The position numbers and the translations under genes were made by a program. From Candidatus Zhuqueibacterota bacterium (GTDB lineage: Bacteria > Zhuqueibacterota > QNDG01 > JABMRT01), in contig JABMRT010000088.1 of the NCBI GenBank assembly GCA_013202295.1, forward strand, positions 1-64,000: 64,000 bases of DNA, given 5' to 3'. The notes beneath the pieces were generated by a model. The model had not been told where the DNA came from. It searched no databases and saw nothing but the letters and a program-made list of their open reading frames with translations. Shown here in pieces: positions 5,073 to 55,387 of this stretch (position 1 is its first letter; each line of letters starts with the position of its first letter).

Positions 5073-5465
5073 TTGGAAGTTGCTACAATTGCTGTAAAGA
5101 AACCTATATTCAAACGATTGACAAAAACTGCTCTCGTATTTGCTGTAGATTTTGACGGAACAATCGTCGAGCACGACTTCCCGGAAATCGGGTCTGAAAA
5201 ACCGGACGCCCTTCGCACATTAAAGGCCCTGCAAAAGGATGGACACAAGATCATCATCTATACCTGCAGGCGTCCGCCCTATATCGGACCTATTATTGAA
5301 TGGATGATTGACAGAGGATTCAAACCAAACGCGATCAACAAAAATCTCTCTTACTTGCCCACGAACCACCCTTCAAAAATCCTGGCGCACGTCTATATCG
5401 ATGATCGCAGCTTCCCGCCGTTTACAGACTGGTCCGATGTTCAGAAAACATATCTAAATAATTAA
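5073..5465 (+). CDS. Small HAD-superfamily hydrolase (BT0820-like)
   Basis: VFAVDFDGTIVEHDFPEIG (DxDGT motif), GHKIIIYTCR; paralog at 48386..48733. Confidence 0.75.
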   Translation: MEVATIAVKKPIFKRLTKTALVFAVDFDGTIVEHDFPEIGSEKPDALRTLKALQKDGHKIIIYTCRRPPYIGPIIEWMIDRGFKPNAINKNLSYLPTNHPSKILAHVYIDDRSFPPFTDWSDVQKTYLNN

Positions 5466-42377: not shown

Positions 42378-45300
42378 TTATCCATTAGCAGCGACAGTGA
42401 AACACGTACCCTTATTTTTTTGGATCGATACCAAACCCTTCAGGTGATGCTCAGCAATACTGATCACGAGGTTCAAACCCATTGATTCCAAAGAGTGAAG
42501 ATCAAATTTTTTAGGCAAGCCCTTACCATTATCCTTTACAGAGAGTTGGACTTGATTGTTTTCCAATCGCTTTAAAGCAATTTTAATTTTATTATTCTTT
42601 TGTTTGGTATTTTGAAAGGGATGTTCAACTGCATTGCTGATAAGTTCGTGTACAATCAATCCCCAGTAAATTGCGCTATCTGCAACAACGCAGACTGGTT
42701 TGCAATCTGAATCAATCGTAATGTCATTCTCGTGGATCTGATAAACGTAATACAATGAACGTACATAGGATTGAATGAACTCTGCCAGATTAATATGCGA
42801 CGGATTGTCTAAGTGATAGATCCGGTCTTGGATCATATCTATGGTATGGATTCTTTGATATGCAGAATCAATGATTCGCTTTGAGTGTGGATCTTTAATA
42901 CGGTTACTTTGAAGTCGCAATAAACTGCAAATGATTTGAAGATTGGTATTAATCCGGAATTTCATTTCAGTTGACAATACTTCTTTATCTTGATTTAAAC
43001 GGTTGATTTCAATGTCAACAGTGCCTCGACCTTTAACAATACATTTTGTCTCATATATTTGTTGGAATTCTTCACCCTTCAACCGACGAATATGCATGTC
43101 TGCAATACGTGCACGATCCTGTTCATCAATATAGTTTGTGAAATCAGTTCCTAATAATTTGGGTAAAGAAATGCCAAGAAATAAAGGCACGCGATTATTT
43201 GCAAATAATATTTTACCATCTTGCAGGATCAGAATACCATCAGTGGCCAATTCGACAAGGTGCCTGTATTTCGCTTCACTTTCTTTTAAAGCCATTTGCG
43301 TCATCACGCGGTCTGTGATATCGTTACTCATATAAACAGTATGGGTCGTATTTCCTTCGTGGTCTTTAATTGGAAAAATGATTACATCTCTCCAAATGAT
43401 TTGTTCTGAAGGTGATGGCACTTGTATCGTACCTCGCCATTCAACTCCCTTACTAACAACCACTTCCTGGATTTCTGAAAATTTTGCCAATAACGGCGAG
43501 TCTTTTGGCACATAGGTATTCCAATGTTTTCCAATGATCATTTCAGAATCATAATGATATAATTCAAGATATTTTGGGTTTGCGTATTCAACAATTTGAT
43601 CTTTGTTTAAAACATTGATTGAACTGGTGCTCTGCTCAACAACAGATGATAATACTTTTAATTGTTTTTCCACAGCCTTCAATTCTGTAACATCTCGAGA
43701 TGTACTGCTGATGCGATATCCTTTACTAGTTTTTATAGGATTCACGATTATTTGAATCACTTTATGTTTCTGATCAGCACTGACAATCTCAAGTTCACGG
43801 ACTTCATTGAACCATGTTGCTTTTCCGGTGTTGCATACATCAAGATAGACAGTTTTTAATTCCCGTAGAGAAAATTGGTGTTGTTGTTCAATGAGTGATA
43901 GTTGAGCAAGAATTTCCCATATGGGTTTATGAATCGCATCTGATCTCTTGATAGCTGTCATAGATTCTTCACCCTTGTTCCATACAATAATAATCCCCTT
44001 TTCATCAGTCAGAATGATACCATCTGAGGATTGTTCAACCACACTACGAAAGCGTTCTTCGCTGTTCCGCAAGGCTTCTTCGGCCATTCTTCTATCCGTA
44101 ATATCGCTTATAAAATGAAGTGTTGCTGGTTGTCCTTCCCATTCAAAGACAATGGAATTGTTATATACCCATTTCATTTGTCCTTTTTTATCAATGATCC
44201 GTATTTCGTTTATAAGAGGTAGATCATCGCCATTTTGTCTTCTTTGCCGATGTTCCACGACTTTTGTAGTATCATCTGGATACAAAAACTTTTCGATTGA
44301 AGAATTTTCAATGTCATTTTTCGTATAATCCAGTAGTTCTATTGTTTTTTGATTGTAAAACATGATTTTCGAATTTTGTACGACAAGAATAGCCTCATTG
44401 GCGTTTTCAACCACCAGCCGGTATTTTTCTTCGCTCTGTTGGAGTGCAATTTCTGCTTTCTTGCGTTCAGTAATGTCGAGAGAAACATTGGCCAAATACA
44501 GCGGCTTATCCGTATCGGAATCCTTTACGGTGAATGTGGTAGAATGGACGTCAGTAAGTTCACCTGTTTTCAGGTTGCGGTATTGCAGATCACCTTCCCA
44601 GATACCCCCGCTCATTAGTGTGGGCAGCATCTCTTTCTCCACCAGATCAACCAGATGTTCAGGAATGACCTCCATAATGTGTGTCTGTTCGACTTCTTCG
44701 GGATCTATGCCGAGCATCCTGCCGCCGGCTTCATTCAGAAAAATCATTTTTCCTTCAAGCGTACCCAGGTTGACGAGTTCACTGCTGTGTCTTATCACGG
44801 CAGCAAGCTTCTCCATTTCCTCAATAGCACGCTTTCGCTCGGTAATATCAGAGAAAACGCCAAATGCAACACTCTTGCCCCCAATTTTCCGTGTTGTCGA
44901 GGCTCTGTCGATCAGCCATATCCATTTACCATCTTTCCGCTGAATACGATATTCGACCTCGTATTTCTTGTTGTTCATAAACAGTTGATTAAAAGCCTTT
45001 TGGACATGAATGACATCATCTTTATGAATTCGATTAAAAAATAATTCTTCTCCATTTTCATAGATTTCTTCAGGTGTATAACCATATACATTTTTCACGT
45101 TTGGACTGATATAGGTCGTTTTCCCATCCTCATCGGTTGCCCAGATGACAGAAGGAAGGTTTTCAATAAGCAGCCTGTTGTGTTCTTCACTTTCACGTAG
45201 AGCTGCTTCAGTCGCTTTAATGTCTGAAATATCTATGGCCAGACCAATAACATATTTTTTCTCATTGACTGTTACTTGCGTACCATTAGCCAAGAAGGGG

Positions 45301-47798
45301 ATGATTTCACCGGCTTTTGTAATAATTGAGTATTCAGCTTGAACAGACTCCCCCTGAAAAACTCTTGATAACTCCTTTCCAATACGTTTCTGGTCCTCAG
45401 GGATGATATGGGCCATAGAAGATTTACCTTTTAATTCCTCTGCTGTGTAACCAAGTATCTTCTCCCGATTCTTATTCCAGCGCATAATTGAACCTGTTTC
45501 ATCGATAATGAAGAAATCACCCGGTAATCCTTCAATAATGCCATTTAAGAATTGTTTCTCTTCTTGAAGAGCCAATTCCATCATTTTGCGTTCTGTGATA
45601 TCTTTGGTGATACCAATGAATGCAACAGGATTCCCAGCATCATCCTTTCGAATACTTGCAGACAATTCTCCGGGGAATTCGGACCCGTCTTTTCTGACAA
45701 GATCATATTCAACATTTCTTATTGAACCCATTGTGAACGTCTGATTCGTATTCTCAATGGCCCTTTGATGATCCCTTTTAGAAATTAATTGAAGAACATT
45801 CATTCCAATTAATTCATCAACAGAACCATACCCATGTAAAGCACACGTTGCTTCATTGCACTGTGTGATTATTCCCTCACCATCTGTCACCGTAATAGCA
45901 TCTGGAGATGAATTGATAATGTCCCTAAGTTTCTTTTCACTTTCCCTTATAGCTTTTTCAGCTTCTTTTCTTTCAGTGACATCTCGAATTGCTGTAACTC
46001 GAATCGAACGACCATCAAGCATTATCGATCTGCCACGTGCCTCAACATGAAAAATTGAACCATCTTTCCGTATGGCTTCATGTTCATAATCTTCCTCAAT
46101 CGCGGTTTTGATGTTATCAATCACAATCTTGTGGGAGGAAGGCGCCACGAATTTCATAACCTCCATGCCAATCATCTCATCCCTTGTATAACCAAGCACA
46201 GTAGCCATTTGTTGGTTTACATCAATAACTTTACCCTTATCTGTGAATGCGATTCCTTCAAAAGTGGATTCAGATAGCCTTCTGAGCCTGTTTTCACTTT
46301 CCAATATTGCCTGCTCAGCATGTTTCCGCTCTGTAATATCTCTTAAAATGGCTTGAATGTAAGTCACTCCTTTTAAAAACAATGGATTTAAACTCACTTC
46401 AGCGTCAAAGGGTGTCTCATCATGCTTTGTGTGCTTCCATTCAAAAATCTGATGTTCTCCAGCCTCTGTTTTATAAATTTTTTCAAGCGCCTTCTCTTTA
46501 GAATTTCGATTATCTGGTTGTTTTAAAGGCGAAAAATCATGAGGTGTGCGTCCGATAATTTGATCTTTTTTACATCCAAATATTTTAAGTGTTTGCGCAT
46601 TGCAATCAATAATTTTGTCACATTTCATAATAAAAATTGCATCATTGGTCGATTCAAAAAGTAACCGATATTTTTCTTCGTTTGCCAATAGATCGGCATC
46701 TAATTTTTGTCTCTCCATTGCATTGGCAAAAATCTGGGAAACAATCTTCAATAAAACGATCTGTTCATCCGGCCATACGATATCTTTTGAACTGGATGCC
46801 AAACCCAAAACACCAATTAATTTCTTTCCATGCTGAATTGGCACCTCTAATCCGGATTGGATCATGGCCGTCTTCAATATCTCGATCATATATTCTTCAG
46901 TCTCTGGAATTTTATCTATATTTGAAATCGATTGAACTTTACACCTTTTTATCTTTTTTGTCCACCATGGAAGCTTATCAGTTGAAATATTTTGCATTTT
47001 TGACTTCATATCTTTCAGCCTATCCCAGTGCCACTCTGCAACACAGGAGAGCTCACTATGATCTTCAGATAATTGCAATACATAACTTCTATCACAACCT
47101 GTTACGCTACTGATTTGTTTAAGTGAAGCTTCGAATTCGGTATAAATCTCCTCAGTATGCAGGTTGATATATCTAGTAGAAATTTCAGCAATTAATTGTT
47201 CAAAATTTAATCGAAATTGAATTTCATTCTCTGCTTTTTTCCGATCAGTTATATCTCGGATAACTGCCAGTATGTGTTCTTTTTCACCAATCTCAGCGAC
47301 ACGAAGCGTCACTTCACTGTCGAACAACTCACCTGATTTTCTTTTGGAGTACCAGTTAAAAACTTGAGTTGTCTCCTTACTAGCTTCTTGAATCCAGTAG
47401 TCTATGTTCTGATCAGAATCGATCATACTACTTGCACTAAGATCATTGAAATACATTCCAATTAACTTCTTCGGATTGTATCCGAAAATAGATTTCACGG
47501 CTTCATTGGCCTCAAGGATTTTCCCAGTATCCTTATCAAGTATTAAAATCGCTTCACTTGCCGCGTTAAGAATTTGTTGGTACTTTAATTCCTGCTCCTG
47601 CATCTGTTTTTGAGTTGAGTGTTTATATAGTGCGATCTCTATTTGGGCACGAAGCTCCTTAATATCATTCAGAGGTTTAGAAATATATCCATAAGGTTGT
47701 ACTGTTTTTATTTCATTTAATGTTTTTTCATCCCCATAAGCAGTTATAAAAATAACAGGTATCTTATATTTAGCAGCAATCTTCTCTGTTGTCTTGAT
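42378..47798 (-). CDS. Giant multi-PAS/GAF histidine-kinase-like protein (HisKA_2/HATPase type); in-frame C-terminal part of a frameshifted REC-PAS-kinase
   Basis: Eleven PAS cores and one GAF recognised; HATPase LIVHELISNAVEHPF and DNGKGLP; open frame upstream of Met 47603 encodes the second half of a REC domain (IKTTEKIAAKYKIPVIFITAYGDEKTLNEIKTVQPYGYISKP...ALYKH). Confidence 0.9.
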   Translation of the reverse strand: MKTTEKIAAKYKIPVIFITAYGDEKTLNEIKTVQPYGYISKPLNDIKELRAQIEIALYKHSTQKQMQEQELKYQQILNAASEAILILDKDTGKILEANEAVKSIFGYNPKKLIGMYFNDLSASSMIDSDQNIDYWIQEASKETTQVFNWYSKRKSGELFDSEVTLRVAEIGEKEHILAVIRDITDRKKAENEIQFRLNFEQLIAEISTRYINLHTEEIYTEFEASLKQISSVTGCDRSYVLQLSEDHSELSCVAEWHWDRLKDMKSKMQNISTDKLPWWTKKIKRCKVQSISNIDKIPETEEYMIEILKTAMIQSGLEVPIQHGKKLIGVLGLASSSKDIVWPDEQIVLLKIVSQIFANAMERQKLDADLLANEEKYRLLFESTNDAIFIMKCDKIIDCNAQTLKIFGCKKDQIIGRTPHDFSPLKQPDNRNSKEKALEKIYKTEAGEHQIFEWKHTKHDETPFDAEVSLNPLFLKGVTYIQAILRDITERKHAEQAILESENRLRRLSESTFEGIAFTDKGKVIDVNQQMATVLGYTRDEMIGMEVMKFVAPSSHKIVIDNIKTAIEEDYEHEAIRKDGSIFHVEARGRSIMLDGRSIRVTAIRDVTERKEAEKAIRESEKKLRDIINSSPDAITVTDGEGIITQCNEATCALHGYGSVDELIGMNVLQLISKRDHQRAIENTNQTFTMGSIRNVEYDLVRKDGSEFPGELSASIRKDDAGNPVAFIGITKDITERKMMELALQEEKQFLNGIIEGLPGDFFIIDETGSIMRWNKNREKILGYTAEELKGKSSMAHIIPEDQKRIGKELSRVFQGESVQAEYSIITKAGEIIPFLANGTQVTVNEKKYVIGLAIDISDIKATEAALRESEEHNRLLIENLPSVIWATDEDGKTTYISPNVKNVYGYTPEEIYENGEELFFNRIHKDDVIHVQKAFNQLFMNNKKYEVEYRIQRKDGKWIWLIDRASTTRKIGGKSVAFGVFSDITERKRAIEEMEKLAAVIRHSSELVNLGTLEGKMIFLNEAGGRMLGIDPEEVEQTHIMEVIPEHLVDLVEKEMLPTLMSGGIWEGDLQYRNLKTGELTDVHSTTFTVKDSDTDKPLYLANVSLDITERKKAEIALQQSEEKYRLVVENANEAILVVQNSKIMFYNQKTIELLDYTKNDIENSSIEKFLYPDDTTKVVEHRQRRQNGDDLPLINEIRIIDKKGQMKWVYNNSIVFEWEGQPATLHFISDITDRRMAEEALRNSEERFRSVVEQSSDGIILTDEKGIIIVWNKGEESMTAIKRSDAIHKPIWEILAQLSLIEQQHQFSLRELKTVYLDVCNTGKATWFNEVRELEIVSADQKHKVIQIIVNPIKTSKGYRISSTSRDVTELKAVEKQLKVLSSVVEQSTSSINVLNKDQIVEYANPKYLELYHYDSEMIIGKHWNTYVPKDSPLLAKFSEIQEVVVSKGVEWRGTIQVPSPSEQIIWRDVIIFPIKDHEGNTTHTVYMSNDITDRVMTQMALKESEAKYRHLVELATDGILILQDGKILFANNRVPLFLGISLPKLLGTDFTNYIDEQDRARIADMHIRRLKGEEFQQIYETKCIVKGRGTVDIEINRLNQDKEVLSTEMKFRINTNLQIICSLLRLQSNRIKDPHSKRIIDSAYQRIHTIDMIQDRIYHLDNPSHINLAEFIQSYVRSLYYVYQIHENDITIDSDCKPVCVVADSAIYWGLIVHELISNAVEHPFQNTKQKNNKIKIALKRLENNQVQLSVKDNGKGLPKKFDLHSLESMGLNLVISIAEHHLKGLVSIQKNKGTCFTVAANG

Positions 47799-48385: not shown

Positions 48386-48733
48386 TTAACAACTGATGGA
48401 CTTTTCAGGTAGAAAAGTCTGTCTCACATGATCCCAACCAGGAAATGGCGGAAAATTACGGTCATCAATATAGACGTTGGCCATAATTTTGGAATACCCG
48501 GGTTTATGACGTCGGACCACATTCTTGTTAATCGCATCAGGCCGAAATCCTCGATTCTCAAACCATTCTATAATTGGGGCCAGCCTAGGTGCAACCCTGC
48601 ATGTGTAGATGATGATTTTATGACCTTTGTTTTGTAAATCCTTAAGTGTATTTACTGCACCTGGGATCTCTGGCCCGATCTCAGGATACTCATGTTCGAC
48701 GATAGTCCCGTCGAAATCGATTGCGAAAATCAT
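48386..48733 (-). CDS. Small HAD-superfamily hydrolase (paralog of 5073..5465)
   Basis: IFAIDFDGTIVEHEYPEIGPEIPGAVNTLKDLQNKGHKIIIYTCR...DAINKNV. Confidence 0.8.
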   Translation of the reverse strand: MIFAIDFDGTIVEHEYPEIGPEIPGAVNTLKDLQNKGHKIIIYTCRVAPRLAPIIEWFENRGFRPDAINKNVVRRHKPGYSKIMANVYIDDRNFPPFPGWDHVRQTFLPEKSISC

Positions 48734-49088: not shown

Positions 49089-49214
49089 TTCTAACGGCTT
49101 GACTAACTGGTTTTAAAACTAAACGAATACTTGCTTTGAAAAAACAATTCCACAAAGAGTAAAATTAAAAAAACAAACATGCTTTTTAAAATCCAGTTCA
49201 GCCAATTGATATGT
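49089..49214 (-). repeat. attC-like recombination site 1
   Basis: Minus strand ACATATC...GTTAGAA ends; imperfect inverted arms; about 70% identical by eye to 53782..53906. Confidence 0.55.
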
Positions 49215-49229
49215 GCTATATTACTTGAT

Positions 49230-50273
49230 TTAAATATCTTCATCGATATTAAATGTTGGGTATTCTCTTATTACTTTTATTGCATCATCGTATGACATTT
49301 CTCCTTTTTCGACCCCATCATAATAGTAATTCCAAATAATATATTTAAGATGAAGAGAATCTCTGCCAAACTTAAAAATATCTTCCATTGTCAGATAACC
49401 GTCTTCATGAATTGGTTCATCAACGCCATTTCTTATGTCATTTTTATGATGCTTATACGAACAATCTTGAACCGAGCAAAATAGTGTCAGTTTATCTTTA
49501 TATTCATCATACATTGGGTAAGTCACTTTTCTCATCCAACGTCGATATGGAAGAATATCTGGACCACCCATAAAAATTCCGTAATAAATTATCGTATCTG
49601 CTATTTGTCGTAAATACTCATTACCATCACCCAGGAAATTTGAATACCAAAAAACATTACTATTTGGGATGCCATTATGAAGGCCAATTAAAATTTTAAT
49701 CAGTGCATCTCTGTATTTCTCGTCTGTATATTTATGTATTTCGAATCCCTCTTTAGTAACATTTAGTGAAGATTCCTGAATTGCGATACCTTCAAAGTTT
49801 GGGTGTGTATCAAATTGCTCTCCAATTGCTTTTCCTAAAGCAACAAATCGCTCAACAACATACGGATCCCAACGAATAGGACAGTATCCTGCCTCCTTAG
49901 AATAATATTCATAATCAGATAAATATTCTGGCATAGCTCCTTTTTCTCCAAAAGAAACATCGATAAGAAAAACAACAAGTTGCTTGTCACGTGCACTTAA
50001 GAAATCTAAGTCTTTCTCAATTTGTGAAAAATCATATACATTCTTTTCAGGCTCTAAATGTCTCCAAAGATATCTTTTATTTACTCCCTGAACTGATGGT
50101 TCATTCAAGTATTTGATGTCTTTCATTTGTTCATACGGACTAAGGGCAACATAATGGCCTGGGTTATACTTTTTTTCTAATTTTCTATTTGTACAACTAA
50201 ATAAATGAATTAATAATGCTGAAAATACTATTACTCGAAATGTTGTCAAAATTTTTGTTTTATTATTTCTCAA
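49230..50273 (-). CDS. Lipoprotein, putative glycoside-hydrolase-like (TIM-barrel) protein
   Basis: Lipobox LIHLFSC; VNKRYLWRHLEPEKNVYDFSQIEKDLDFLSARDKQLVVFL. Confidence 0.6.
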   Translation of the reverse strand: MRNNKTKILTTFRVIVFSALLIHLFSCTNRKLEKKYNPGHYVALSPYEQMKDIKYLNEPSVQGVNKRYLWRHLEPEKNVYDFSQIEKDLDFLSARDKQLVVFLIDVSFGEKGAMPEYLSDYEYYSKEAGYCPIRWDPYVVERFVALGKAIGEQFDTHPNFEGIAIQESSLNVTKEGFEIHKYTDEKYRDALIKILIGLHNGIPNSNVFWYSNFLGDGNEYLRQIADTIIYYGIFMGGPDILPYRRWMRKVTYPMYDEYKDKLTLFCSVQDCSYKHHKNDIRNGVDEPIHEDGYLTMEDIFKFGRDSLHLKYIIWNYYYDGVEKGEMSYDDAIKVIREYPTFNIDEDI

Positions 50274-50312
50274 AATTCAATTCTCCATTTAGAAATGGTG
50301 TGTTACTGTTAC

Positions 50313-50443
50313 GCTTAACGATGGTTATAAGGGGACGAAAACCCTACGGCGATGTGTTTCGCGTCGCCAGCACCTGAGCCCGAATTAAAACCTGAACATG
50401 CAACCGGAACGCGTTTGCGTTCCGTTGCATGCCCGGGTTATAC
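50313..50443 (-). repeat. attC-like recombination site 3 (weaker)
   Basis: Minus strand GTATAAC...GTTAAGC ends (GTTRRRY match), partially complementary arms; 131 bp; immediately after stop of 50453 gene. Confidence 0.4.
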
Positions 50444-50452
50444 GCGATTTTT

Positions 50453-52306
50453 TTAGTTACTTATAACTGGTAAAGTGATTTTCGAAGCCAATTGGCTATT
50501 TCGGTAAATTGTTATTTCAGGGACAGGTTTTTCCTCTAGTATCTCATCCCATTTTTCATTTGCGCAACTAATACTGACGCGAATTCGATGCCCTTTGTTA
50601 AATATGTTAGAGAGCGGCATTAAATCGAATTTAAGTTCAACAGGTTGGTCTTCTGGAATTGGCATTATATCTTCCTCAAAATGACGATGATACGGTAAAT
50701 CCATATTATCAAAAGGTGGTTTTGCTTCCTTTCGATGTGAAGCCCGTAAACAACCATCTGTGATTAAATAAGATTTGCCATCATTATCAATTTCTTCCAG
50801 ATAAACATAAAAATTACCGTCACCAAAACTTGAAGATACAAAAAGTGTAACAACAGGACTTCCGATAACGGTCACGTCTGTATCCAGAAGAGGTGTTGTA
50901 TAAGTTAAACTCTTTAGGTCGTTTGGGGTCATATCCGGAGCGTTGAGATTTTGAATCGGCGCCCGAGGAAGGTGGATTTTACCAATACTGGTGCTGTAAT
51001 CTACTTTGTAAATATCCTTGCATATTTTATCTGCTGAAATCTTTACTGACAAACCACCATCATTAACAGATGAAACACTCTCTGATTGTCCTCCCGAAAA
51101 ATAGTAGTCTGCCTGGTCAATTTTTGGGAGCGGCCACCTATTCGTGCTGTGCCAGGTATATTCACCCGGATTATTTATAACAGCGTATAAAATTGCAGGC
51201 TCCTCCATAATCCCATTAACGATGTCCTTTAGCCAATAGTCGAACCAACGCAATTGTTCAATGGTGTATAATTTATAACGCTCAGTACGTACAGTGGAGT
51301 CTAAATCGGAATGAGCCCAGGGTCCTATAACAAGTTTCTGTGGATTTTTCAGATTTCTGAAATATTGAAACACATCACGGGGAAAGCCATCAAACCAGCC
51401 AGCCCAATGATAGACAGCAATGGAAGATGAGCTTATTCGCTTGATATGGGACATCGGGTTGTCCAATGTCCAGGGTTTTGTTATTTCACCCTCGCTATCA
51501 TGAAAAGGGAAATTAGCCATAAGTATTGGATCTACATTTTCTCGATGTTGTTCTCTTGCAGCAGCTGTGTAAACACCATCTACATCCTCATCCACGTGAA
51601 TAAACGGCGCCTCAAAATCCTGCCATTTAAAATTTTTGCTGACCATTTCAAGAATAATTTTACGAAGAATTCCACCTGGATAAATGAGCTGATATAGATC
51701 AAAGGCCCCCATTGAAGGAAAAATAGCTTTCAAATGCGGCGGGGAAAGAGAAGCAGTCATTAATTGGATATGTGCGCTGTATGAATGTCCGAACATACCC
51801 ACATTGCTATCACACCATGATTGACTTGCCAGCCATTCAATAATATCGTAACCATCCTTTGCCTCCTCCATGGAAACCGGACCTGTTACTTGTCCGAATG
51901 AGGCGCCTCTTCCCCTACTATCTACAATAGCGATAATGTAACCGTGACGCACGAGCGTTTGCAAAGATGTGCTTCGGTCCACCATTGAGATCACTTTCCC
52001 ATTTTCCATTCTTGCCCGCAAATACGAATAATAATTCAAGAGTGCTGGTAGTGGATTTTCTTCTACTTTTCCATCTATTGTGGGGCGGATGATATCGATA
52101 GCAATTTTGACACTATCGCGCATGGTGACGTATTTTGATGTACGTTCCCAACCATTATATTTTTCTTCCGAGTAGCCTTCGTATTTTCCAAATTCAGATA
52201 TGGCGCCCGGTTTCGGGGATTTTGTTTTTTCAAAAGAAATCACACCGAATAGAAGAAGAACCAATATATATAGAAAAATCTTTTGCCATTGCTTAGACGT
52301 AATCAT
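50453..52306 (-). CDS. CocE/NonD family (X-Pro dipeptidyl-peptidase-like) hydrolase
   Basis: GMFGHSYSAHIQLMTAS nucleophile elbow; YVTMRDSVKIAIDIIRP; C-terminal jelly-roll RIRVSISCAN. Confidence 0.87.
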   Translation of the reverse strand: MITSKQWQKIFLYILVLLLFGVISFEKTKSPKPGAISEFGKYEGYSEEKYNGWERTSKYVTMRDSVKIAIDIIRPTIDGKVEENPLPALLNYYSYLRARMENGKVISMVDRSTSLQTLVRHGYIIAIVDSRGRGASFGQVTGPVSMEEAKDGYDIIEWLASQSWCDSNVGMFGHSYSAHIQLMTASLSPPHLKAIFPSMGAFDLYQLIYPGGILRKIILEMVSKNFKWQDFEAPFIHVDEDVDGVYTAAAREQHRENVDPILMANFPFHDSEGEITKPWTLDNPMSHIKRISSSSIAVYHWAGWFDGFPRDVFQYFRNLKNPQKLVIGPWAHSDLDSTVRTERYKLYTIEQLRWFDYWLKDIVNGIMEEPAILYAVINNPGEYTWHSTNRWPLPKIDQADYYFSGGQSESVSSVNDGGLSVKISADKICKDIYKVDYSTSIGKIHLPRAPIQNLNAPDMTPNDLKSLTYTTPLLDTDVTVIGSPVVTLFVSSSFGDGNFYVYLEEIDNDGKSYLITDGCLRASHRKEAKPPFDNMDLPYHRHFEEDIMPIPEDQPVELKFDLMPLSNIFNKGHRIRVSISCANEKWDEILEEKPVPEITIYRNSQLASKITLPVISN

Positions 52307-52320
52307 AAGCGCCTCCTGAT

Positions 52321-53745
52321 TTAGTGACCTTCAATCAACTTAACACGATCCAATAACCTGCCATCTTTGATGACAGATTCTATTGTTCTGGTATTACGAA
52401 TATCATCGAGTGGATTTGCGTTTAAAATGATTAGATCGGCTCGTTTTCCTTCCTCTATCGTCCCAAACAAGTTTTCAGCGCTAAGCATTTCTGCACCTTT
52501 TCGTGTAGCTGCGACAAGTATTTCCATTGGAGATAAGCCCGCCTTTGCCAGAAGTTCCATCTCCAAATGTGAACTGTATCCTGGAAAGTTAAAAATAAAT
52601 CCTGCATCAGTTCCTAATACTATTTTCACACCTGAGCGATGTGCTTCCCCGATACCTCTAATAATATTTTCCACACGAGGACGAACCCAGGCTGCTGTGC
52701 GCTGTTTATGTGCATTAAGGAATAATGGATTGTTTAAGCTTTCTATTGTATGTCTTGAAACGCCGTCTCTTAGAAATGGATCAGCAAAAAGTGTTGGATC
52801 ATCGATATAACGGTAGAACCCGCAATAAAGAGCGAGAGTCGGAATATAGTAAATGTCGTTTTCTTTCATAGTTTGAATTAGTGATTCATCGAGAATTGGT
52901 TTATCCATAACGCCATGAGCTATTGCTCCGACACCTGCCTTGACAGCATCTTGCATTTCGTCTAATGACGATATATGGGCATATACAGGTAATTTAAATT
53001 TATTGGCTTCATCGAGGATGTATTGAATTAATTCTGGAGACATTCGCGGATGGTTGTTACCCCAAGGTGGGGGACCAGATTCAATGATGATCTTTACACC
53101 ATCCATGCCTAAGGCTGCATTGTTGGCAATAGCCTCACGGACTTGCCTATTATTTCTGATGATTGTGTAGCCCCTTGATTCCCAATCAATCGTTTCAAGG
53201 TCTGTACCTGGTGGTAATGACGCTGCAACAGTTGTGGCAATCGGATGGCCACCGGGTACAGTCAACATATTGCCTGTTCCATAGATACAAGGTGCAAAAA
53301 CAAAACCCTCACGCTGTCGTTTATGAAGTTCAGCGATTTCGCTGGTGCTGCCGCCATCAGCGCCTAAGTTCAATACTGTAGTTACACCATAATATAAAAA
53401 TTGTCTGAATACACGCTCATTGGTGTGTGAAGCATGAGGCTCAAGACCTCCGCTACTGAAGTGTACATGAACATCAACCAGTCCGGGCATCACATATTTA
53501 CCAGTGGCATTAATGAGGATTGTACTTCCCGGAACATGTTTGATATCTTTCGATGATATGTGAGATATAATGCCGTCTTTGATAAATATATTTACGTTTG
53601 AAACCGGTACATTTCCAGTCCCGTCAATAAGTGTCGCATTAGAAATAATAAGATCCACGTCCTGTATATTTGGGGAAGAACATGCCGAAAACATGAGAAT
53701 GGACAGGATGAATAGTATTGCAATACGGTTTTTTATAAGTTTCAT
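52321..53745 (-). CDS. Amidohydrolase-family lipoprotein (imidazolonepropionase-like)
   Basis: Lipobox MFSAC; GKYVMPGLVDVHVHF, VYAHISS, LGTDAGF, KRADLIILNANPL. Confidence 0.9.
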   Translation of the reverse strand: MKLIKNRIAILFILSILMFSACSSPNIQDVDLIISNATLIDGTGNVPVSNVNIFIKDGIISHISSKDIKHVPGSTILINATGKYVMPGLVDVHVHFSSGGLEPHASHTNERVFRQFLYYGVTTVLNLGADGGSTSEIAELHKRQREGFVFAPCIYGTGNMLTVPGGHPIATTVAASLPPGTDLETIDWESRGYTIIRNNRQVREAIANNAALGMDGVKIIIESGPPPWGNNHPRMSPELIQYILDEANKFKLPVYAHISSLDEMQDAVKAGVGAIAHGVMDKPILDESLIQTMKENDIYYIPTLALYCGFYRYIDDPTLFADPFLRDGVSRHTIESLNNPLFLNAHKQRTAAWVRPRVENIIRGIGEAHRSGVKIVLGTDAGFIFNFPGYSSHLEMELLAKAGLSPMEILVAATRKGAEMLSAENLFGTIEEGKRADLIILNANPLDDIRNTRTIESVIKDGRLLDRVKLIEGH

Positions 53746-53781
53746 ATTTGTTCCCTCCCCTTCTAAAGATATTTGTTTGCG

Positions 53782-53906
53782 GCCTAACGTCGTGGCTAAC
53801 TGGTTTTAAAACTAAACGAACACATAAGTTGAAAAAGTAATTCCATAAAATTTAAAACTGAAAAATAAAGGTACGTTTTAAAATCCAGTTGAGCCAGTTG
53901 TTATGT
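53782..53906 (-). repeat. attC-like recombination site 2
   Basis: Minus strand ACATAAC...GTTAGGC; arms CCTAACGTCGTGGCT-AACTGG-TTTTAAAA vs CATAACAAC-TGGCTCAACTGGATTTTAAAA with an unpaired base. Confidence 0.65.
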
Positions 53907-54888
53907 TTTGTTTTTTATGGTTTATAGTTATAACAACATTTCCCTTTTTATGACCTTTATCAACATACCGGTGTGCTTCTGCGGTCTCTTCTAAGGGATA
54001 GCATCTATCAATGACCGGTTTGATTTTTCCCTCTTCTACAAGTTCTCTGAGCAAATGTAAATCTTCGATCTTATTCGCTATACCATAGATGATTTTCTTT
54101 TTACTTGTCAGGGATATCCAAAGGGCCTCAAGAATCGGCCAATCCACCGTAATAAAGGCCCCTTTCTCTGTCAGAGAATTTTTACATTGGGAATATGAGG
54201 TTTTCATGACCGCATCAAAAATGATGTCATACCGTTCTCCGCTATTGGTAAAATTCTCCTTTGTGTAATCAATCACTTTGTCAGCACCAATAGATTTTAC
54301 CAATTCTATATTATCTGTACTGCAAACACCGGTTACCTCCGCTCCAAAATATTTGGCCAGCTGGACTACAAAAGTACCGACACTCCCGGATGCTCCATTG
54401 ATCAACACGCTCTGTCCTTTTTGGATTTTCCCTTTTCTTAACAACACCAAGGCGGTTAATCCCCCGATGGGAACAGCAGCAGCTTCTTCATAGGAACTGT
54501 TTATCGGTTTTAGTGCGACCCTGTTTTTCGGCATACATTTGTATTCAGCATTGCCGCCGCCATTGCTCACTTCCCAGACTATAGCATACACCTGATCGCC
54601 CGGTTTAAATTCTGATACATTATTTCCTATGGCCTCAATCTCACCGGCCAGTTCATTTCCCGGCGTCGGTTTTCTCGGCCTTCGAAAACCGAACCAAATT
54701 TTCCCTGGGAGCAGGAACCAGCGGGCCCAGGTAAAGCTTCGCATTCGTACATCTCCTGCGGCTACCGTACTTGCATATACCTTAATTAACACTTCATTAT
54801 CCCCGGGTGTCGGTTTTAGTACATCTTTAAGCTGAAGCACTTCGGGTGGACCGTATTGAGTACAGACTATTGCTTTCATTTGTGTCAC
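53878..54888 (-). CDS. NAD(P)-dependent alcohol dehydrogenase / quinone oxidoreductase-like MDR protein
   Basis: GNELAGEIEAIGNNVSEFKPGDQVYA, VLINGASGSVGTFVVQLAKYFGAEVTGVCST. Confidence 0.9.
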   Translation of the reverse strand: MTQMKAIVCTQYGPPEVLQLKDVLKPTPGDNEVLIKVYASTVAAGDVRMRSFTWARWFLLPGKIWFGFRRPRKPTPGNELAGEIEAIGNNVSEFKPGDQVYAIVWEVSNGGGNAEYKCMPKNRVALKPINSSYEEAAAVPIGGLTALVLLRKGKIQKGQSVLINGASGSVGTFVVQLAKYFGAEVTGVCSTDNIELVKSIGADKVIDYTKENFTNSGERYDIIFDAVMKTSYSQCKNSLTEKGAFITVDWPILEALWISLTSKKKIIYGIANKIEDLHLLRELVEEGKIKPVIDRCYPLEETAEAHRYVDKGHKKGNVVITINHKKQNITTGSTGF

Positions 54889-54941
54889 TCCGAGATGATT
54901 TTAAGCATAATATTTAAAACATAACATAGTATTAACGACCC

Positions 54942-55039
54942 TATATGCATATTTTAAATGCATATAAATATAGAAACCATGTATCTATATATAGAGACTT
55001 GTATCTATTTATAGATACCTATATGCATTGTATATGCAT
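54942..55039. repeat. AT-rich cluster of iterated palindromic elements
   Basis: TATATGCAT-attttaa-ATGCATATA; GTATCTAT-at-ATAGAGAC; GTATCTAT-tt-ATAGATAC; TATATGCAT-tg-TATATGCAT. Confidence 0.75.
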
Positions 55040-55387
55040 CTATAACGGACCGCGCTTCACAATGCGGTCTTCTAAATCAAGTTCAAAAACAGTCGGAAGA
55101 GGGAGCTCCCAGACTTTTTGAATCGGATTCCATTTTCTACCGGCCATTTTAACATTTTGCCGTAATTCGGTCTCCTGAATGTGAATTTGAAGCCCCACTT
55201 TCTTGTCATGAACAATACCCTGATAGCATTCCAGCTTCCAGTACTGTTCATCAACAATAATCTCCGCAGTCTTCAAGCGTCTCTTTGATATCGGATCATA
55301 ACGGTACCGGACACACACGAGTTCGGCGCCGTGTGCCTGCATTTCCGATTTGGTGCCGCGTTGTCCTGGCTTCAATACCAGACGCAT
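55040..55387 (-). CDS. Conserved hypothetical protein
   Basis: 115 aa MRLVLKPGQRGTKSEMQAHGAELVCVRYRYDPISKRRLKTAEIIVDE...; coherent charged composition. Confidence 0.6.
   Translation of the reverse strand: MRLVLKPGQRGTKSEMQAHGAELVCVRYRYDPISKRRLKTAEIIVDEQYWKLECYQGIVHDKKVGLQIHIQETELRQNVKMAGRKWNPIQKVWELPLPTVFELDLEDRIVKRGPL

Follow-up and report, generated by a model that had tools for sequence, protein, structure and literature searches.

An integrase-less cassette array with an attI-like site and an adjoining ORF115 gene in a Zhuqueibacterota genome: a putative integron platform recurring in many bacterial phyla

Introduction

The attI1 site of class 1 integrons carries accessory repeats to which the integrase IntI binds. 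Outside class 1 integrons, attI sites are hard to locate; they are poorly described and are not detected by IntegronFinder (PMC9024848). In the chromosomal integrons of Treponema, the integrase gene intI is transcribed towards attI (PMC3607928). Arrays that combine at least two attC sites and same-strand cassettes but have no intI in the vicinity are known as CALINs, which are usually taken as degraded or off-target products and for which off-target insertion, loss of intI or rearrangement have been given as origins (PMC8618304).

The array described here lies in a 303-contig draft genome of Candidatus Zhuqueibacterota. The whole stretch analysed, 64,000 nt in length and termed the window below, is part of a 66-kb contig; other contigs and loci are designated by C and L numbers. 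With three attC sites, the window array falls under the formal definition of a CALIN, but it adds an attI-like site, palindromic repeats and a small gene, here called ORF115, all of which lie outside that definition. Set against a complete integron, the array has an attI-like site at its head whereas intI is missing beside it. It shares with class 1 attI1 the presence of repeated sequence beside the crossover site; the repeats described here differ in being palindromes of about 18 nt with a locus-specific sequence and in having a dedicated small gene adjoining them. The sedentary chromosomal integron of Treponema is resembled in that the intact intI of this genome, on contig C8, shares its strand with attI and the first cassette, and in that the genome is rich in attC sites. 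In the C8 locus, however, ORF115 separates intI from attI, and the window locus lacks intI, retaining just ORF115, attI and cassettes. The text of the Treponema integron paper makes no mention of an ORF115-like gene (PMC3607928). The main new result, as read from sequence, is this candidate ORF115–attI platform and its recurrence in many bacterial phyla.

attC Sites and Cassettes of the Window

A covariance model was built from eight attC sites on other contigs of the same genome, without any window sequence. Over the 64 kb of the window it recovered exactly three sites, all on the minus strand. The sole further match below E = 1 was the opposite-strand reading of the first site, and nothing unrelated was hit. 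The sites and the cassettes they delimit are as follows.

53782–53906, minus strand: attC of cassette 1; R'' ACATAAC, R' GTTAGGC, two extrahelical bases; covariance model E = 1.4e-26
50313–50443, minus strand: attC of cassette 2, diverged; R'' GTATAAC, R' GTTAAGC; covariance model E = 6.9e-4
49089–49214, minus strand: terminal attC, of cassette 3; R' GTTAGAA, R'' altered to ACATATC; covariance model E = 2.8e-22
53788–54924, minus strand: cassette 1, with an ADH gene (53878–54888); boundaries from attI and R' box
50319–53787, minus strand: cassette 2, with an amidohydrolase (52321–53745; PF01979) and a CocE/NonD hydrolase (50453–52306; TIGR00976); boundaries from R' boxes
49095–50318, minus strand: cassette 3, with a putative lipoprotein gene (49230–50273); boundaries from R' boxes

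An earlier sequence-only reading had reported two elements of about 125 bp with a common core at 49089–49214 and 53782–53906, and both are present as described (80% identity over 82 nt, with CTAACTGGTTTTAAAACTAAACGAA common to both). The attC architecture that it assigned to them is borne out as well. In the L box of 53782–53906, TGGCT[C]AACTGG[A]TTTT lies opposite TGGCTAACTGGTTTT, with two extra bases (C and A) on one arm six nt apart (C-N6-A), and sister attC sites in the same genome carry their extrahelical bases in the same register. In the weaker site that had been proposed at 50313–50443, AT[G]CAACGG[A]ACG, the two extra bases are likewise kept in register. Two extrahelical bases so arranged are the classical attC pattern, as in aadA-type sites. 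Tested against RYYYAAC/GTTRRRY, the boxes of the attC sites of cassettes 1 and 2 fit, while both boxes of the terminal site are degenerate. In an independent box-plus-duplex scan, 53782–53906 ranked top among 163 candidates. Furthermore, the helix of the eight sister sites covaries (14 cells changed on both sides; 0/500 shuffles as high), and this signal is lost when the partner is slid by one to three columns. Because the covariance model trained outside the window recovers them and the sister sites covary, the three sites are, on this sequence evidence, real attC-type sites, that at 50313–50443 being diverged and the terminal one having damaged outer boxes.

The sequence-only reading had suggested folding of the bottom strand as a check. 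In standard thermodynamic folding, z values were -1.6, -0.1 and -2.8 for the three sites, only one of which (-2.8) is unusually stable. The attC evidence consists of the box pattern, sister-site covariation and homology, not of folding stability. A scan of the window against Rfam at gathering thresholds returned no match.

The three cassettes share one orientation, as had been claimed. The gene of cassette 1 encodes a zinc-type alcohol dehydrogenase/quinone oxidoreductase (Pfam ADH_N, ADH_zinc_N_2), while the putative lipoprotein gene of cassette 3 has no match in Pfam or NCBIfam and falls into no known family. Since the R'' box of the terminal attC is damaged, the array may be partly frozen.

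Ordinary non-cassette genes occupy long stretches on both sides of the array. Its head is bordered by an M3 peptidase gene, and ORF115 sits between the ADH cassette and this gene. M3 peptidase orthologues elsewhere in the order are accompanied neither by ORF115 nor by any cassette, and a gene order conserved in relatives without cassette boundaries was not seen. An empty-site comparison in relatives found the two flanks not to be syntenic, with the flanking HAD phosphatase unmatched in the rest of the order. The contig carries two paralogous small HAD-type phosphatases (48386–48733, minus strand; 5133–5459, plus strand) with 61% identity, and a comparison with the other 11 genomes of the order matched neither at E <= 1e-15. 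At 42378–47603 (minus strand) lies the gene for a sensor histidine kinase of 1741 aa, in which about ten PAS domains are combined with a GAF domain.

The Head of the Array

Upstream of cassette 1, three further features were found on the same strand.

54921–54940, minus strand: attI-like core GGTCGTTAATACTATG/TTAT; exact second copy downstream of the C8 intI only
54941–55042, minus strand: palindromic repeat block between ORF115 and attI, with four palindromes, e.g., GTATCTATAAATAGATAC and TATATGCATTTAAAATATGCATATA
55040–55387, minus strand: ORF115 (115 aa), member of an unnamed family associated with attI and integron integrases

The interpretation offered by the sequence-only reading, a CALIN-like cluster, is thus right about the attC sites, the placing of the three cassettes on one strand and the lack of intI in the window, but the label is incomplete, since the array has its own attI-like site, palindromes and ORF115 beyond the coordinates given in that reading. 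The genome has just two exact occurrences of the 20-mer GGTCGTTAATACTATGTTAT, one at 54921–54940 and the other after the ORF115 paralogue on C8; a reversed-pattern control gave none. By sequence, the head of the array therefore bears a core identical to an intI-linked copy, at the place expected for attI. The crossover is presumed to fall between 54925 and 54924, because the two core copies diverge there and the attC sites of the genome have GTTATRY R' boxes. Divergence of the window and C8 directly past TTAT is expected if different cassettes were joined at G/TTAT.

The repeat block of the window has a palindrome score of 69; dinucleotide shuffles score 27 +/- 11, and none of 500 reaches the window value. 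Its direct-repeat count alone is not significant (9/40), nor is the palindrome score of the C8 repeat block. The window and C8 share an exact attI core, while their ORF115 proteins are 43% identical and their repeats differ.

Integrase and attC Sites Elsewhere in the Genome

No intI is present in the window, in agreement with the sequence-only reading, which had called for a genome-wide search for the gene and for sister repeats. C8 carries an intact intI (450.8 bits; cut-off, 265), which ends directly before the only ORF115 paralogue of the genome. A second intI-like gene (C241:1-1166; L018, minus strand) is broken, between positions 272 and 274 of the profile, by an insert of about 300 bp, which holds a small GIY-YIG-type reading frame and is flanked by 12-bp inverted repeats (CCCTGTGAGATA / TATCTCACAGGG).

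Scoring of 150 out of 1290 candidates gave 54 distinct attC sites with E < 0.01, a minimum for the genome, distributed over 31 contigs; the window attC sites belong to this family. Homologous elements occur on C183, C57, C242 and C139, and a box scan of C57 and C139 revealed further attC sites in arrays of same-strand genes. That the elements are transposon-linked MITEs, which the earlier reading had named as a possible refutation, is rejected, as the sites on the contigs examined follow same-strand genes in cassette arrays. Unusually large genes occur in cassettes on C139 (L022) and C57 (L020); their products include two sulfatases, each of 536 aa, a protein with a beta-lactamase fold, a lactonase, and a sortilin-domain protein of 1121 aa that bears a secretion tail.

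The ORF115 Family

ORF115 has no match in Pfam, NCBIfam, PHROG or the PDB sequences, a weak DUF5710 signal (E 0.015 at best) not being used, and a search in plasmids gave no match. Its predicted structures have mean pLDDT values of 77.8 and 85.8, and Foldseek searches with these models returned nothing better than E = 1.5 and no fold match. A literature search, with subscription papers and preprints outside its scope, found no description of ORF115, and an earlier report is possible.

Within the phylum, ORF115 is found in 27 of the 82 genomes examined, where the matching records are labelled candidate division KSB1, Calditrichaceae or Caldithrix. Most full-length copies adjoin intI, which commonly stands directly before ORF115 on the same strand, and the two genes co-occur per genome with an odds ratio of 6.4 (p = 2.4e-4). 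A strong intI is absent in seven of the 27 ORF115-positive genomes, though many are incomplete.

A scan of reference genomes yielded 108 loci, of which 80 were kept, in Chloroflexi, Acidobacteria, Geobacter and relatives, Beta- and Gammaproteobacteria, Nitrospirota, Fibrobacteres, Cyanobacteria and others. Relative to ORF115, intI lies divergently upstream in 23 loci, upstream on the same strand in nine and downstream in two; the remaining 46 have none in the flank examined, some of these flanks being short. ORF115 is commonly followed by repeats and then by an attI-like GTT site. The repeat signal beside ORF115 is common but not universal, because two different tests were positive in 28/89 loci (direct or inverted repeats above all 40 shuffles) and in 37/89 loci (palindrome-rich at 3/60 or better).

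Integrase-Less ORF115 Loci

Among genomes with an integrase-less ORF115 locus, 21 of 24 have an intI over the cut-off elsewhere, as opposed to 0/14 control genomes. In the 25 such loci with flanking sequence, the best attC-like score is higher downstream than upstream of ORF115 (Wilcoxon p = 2.3e-4). Several integrase-less loci have attC sites after ORF115. One of them, L117, carries four consecutive attC-like sites; their type is that of the intI array in the same genome (L189), one of whose cassettes the first cassette of L117 resembles. Similarly, L132 shares cassette sequence with the intI array L195 of its own genome.

An attI core common to an intI locus and an integrase-less locus whose ORF115 and repeats differ was found in three genomes, including that of the window. 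In the pair L121/L209 the attI match is 24/24 with ORF115 at 54% identity; in L097/L202, the weakest of the three cases, the core is shared less strictly and ORF115 is 67% identical. In most of the other genomes compared, the best match of the attI of the integrase-less locus is not the intI locus of the same genome (rank 1 in 5/23), and at least one of these five rank-1 matches, that of L139, is probably due to chance.

Across 73 loci, repeat similarity correlates with ORF115 identity (r = 0.21, p = 0.001), compared with r = 0.02 (p = 0.27) for a control cassette region. The correlation is not significant within the 30 intI-bearing loci, and a Mantel test does not distinguish between ORF115 and IntI as the partner linked to the repeats.

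Origin of the Integrase-Less Array

The preferred reading, to which a probability of about 0.72 is given, is that the window locus is a secondary, integrase-less integron platform to which IntI is supplied in trans. ORF115, the palindromic repeat block and attI would form the fixed base, onto which the three cassettes would have been inserted in one orientation. The C8 enzyme is the most likely source, because the attI cores are identical and the attC sites belong to one family; its presumed substrates are the attI of the window and the attC sites folded from the bottom strand. ORF115 itself is most likely a DNA-binding accessory factor seated on the palindromes beside attI, where it might help recombination or control the expression of the first cassettes. 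It probably binds these palindromes, as suggested by its position, by the operator-like palindromic units and by the correlation between repeats and ORF115.

Alternatively, a complete intI–ORF115–attI–cassette locus may have lost intI by deletion, leaving a CALIN that keeps attI. As intI commonly precedes ORF115 in the phylum, such a deletion would yield the layout of the window; CALINs have already been proposed to be degraded integrons (PMC9024848), the R'' box of the terminal attC has decayed, and a small number of other loci with ORF115, including L082 and L118, have intI remnants alongside. Degradation is nevertheless considered the less likely, though a serious, alternative. A search beside the window ORF115 and array found no intI relic, and ORF115 is uninterrupted here and in 46/46 integrase-less loci (themselves found via ORF115 matches), with a dN/dS of 0.07–0.38 between such loci that indicates purifying selection. 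Moreover, the attI core has stayed unchanged while ORF115 diverged. The two histories may coexist, in that a locus deprived of its own intI may go on in trans.

Off-target insertion, by which the C8 IntI would have put cassettes at a chance secondary site and produced an ordinary CALIN, is a recognised CALIN origin (PMC8618304) and agrees with the window attC sites coming from the genome's own family, but it is largely excluded, as a chance site leaves unexplained an insertion point that is the exact intI-linked attI core, preceded by ORF115 and palindromes. It is equally improbable that a misjoined contig set part of the main integron array in chromosomal sequence: repeated attC sites break assemblies and the draft is fragmented, yet the window ORF115 and repeats are unlike the C8 copy, the array is short with long non-cassette gene stretches on either side, and the same layout recurs in isolates and long contigs of other phyla (L151, Geotalea sp. 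SG265, on a 122-kb scaffold; L097, on a 172-kb contig).

Beyond the trans-supplied platform proposed for the window, the layout suggests that ORF115 is a dedicated integron accessory protein. More tentatively, and at somewhat less than even odds, ORF115, palindromes and attI may act together as an independent module that distributes cassette landing pads among genomes of many phyla, with one IntI filling the pads in trans and each ORF115 acting as an accessory specific to the palindromes of its own pad. If so, a share of present-day CALINs would be active secondary integrons. A conserved gene and palindromes that mark attI in many phyla could make attI findable and allow landing pads to be told from debris.

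A separate observation concerns the Fibrobacteres genome fen_1185, in which two intI genes are present and, elsewhere in the genome, three integrase-less ORF115 loci (L123, L127, and L129) have closely similar attI-like cores (GGGTAG/TTGT).
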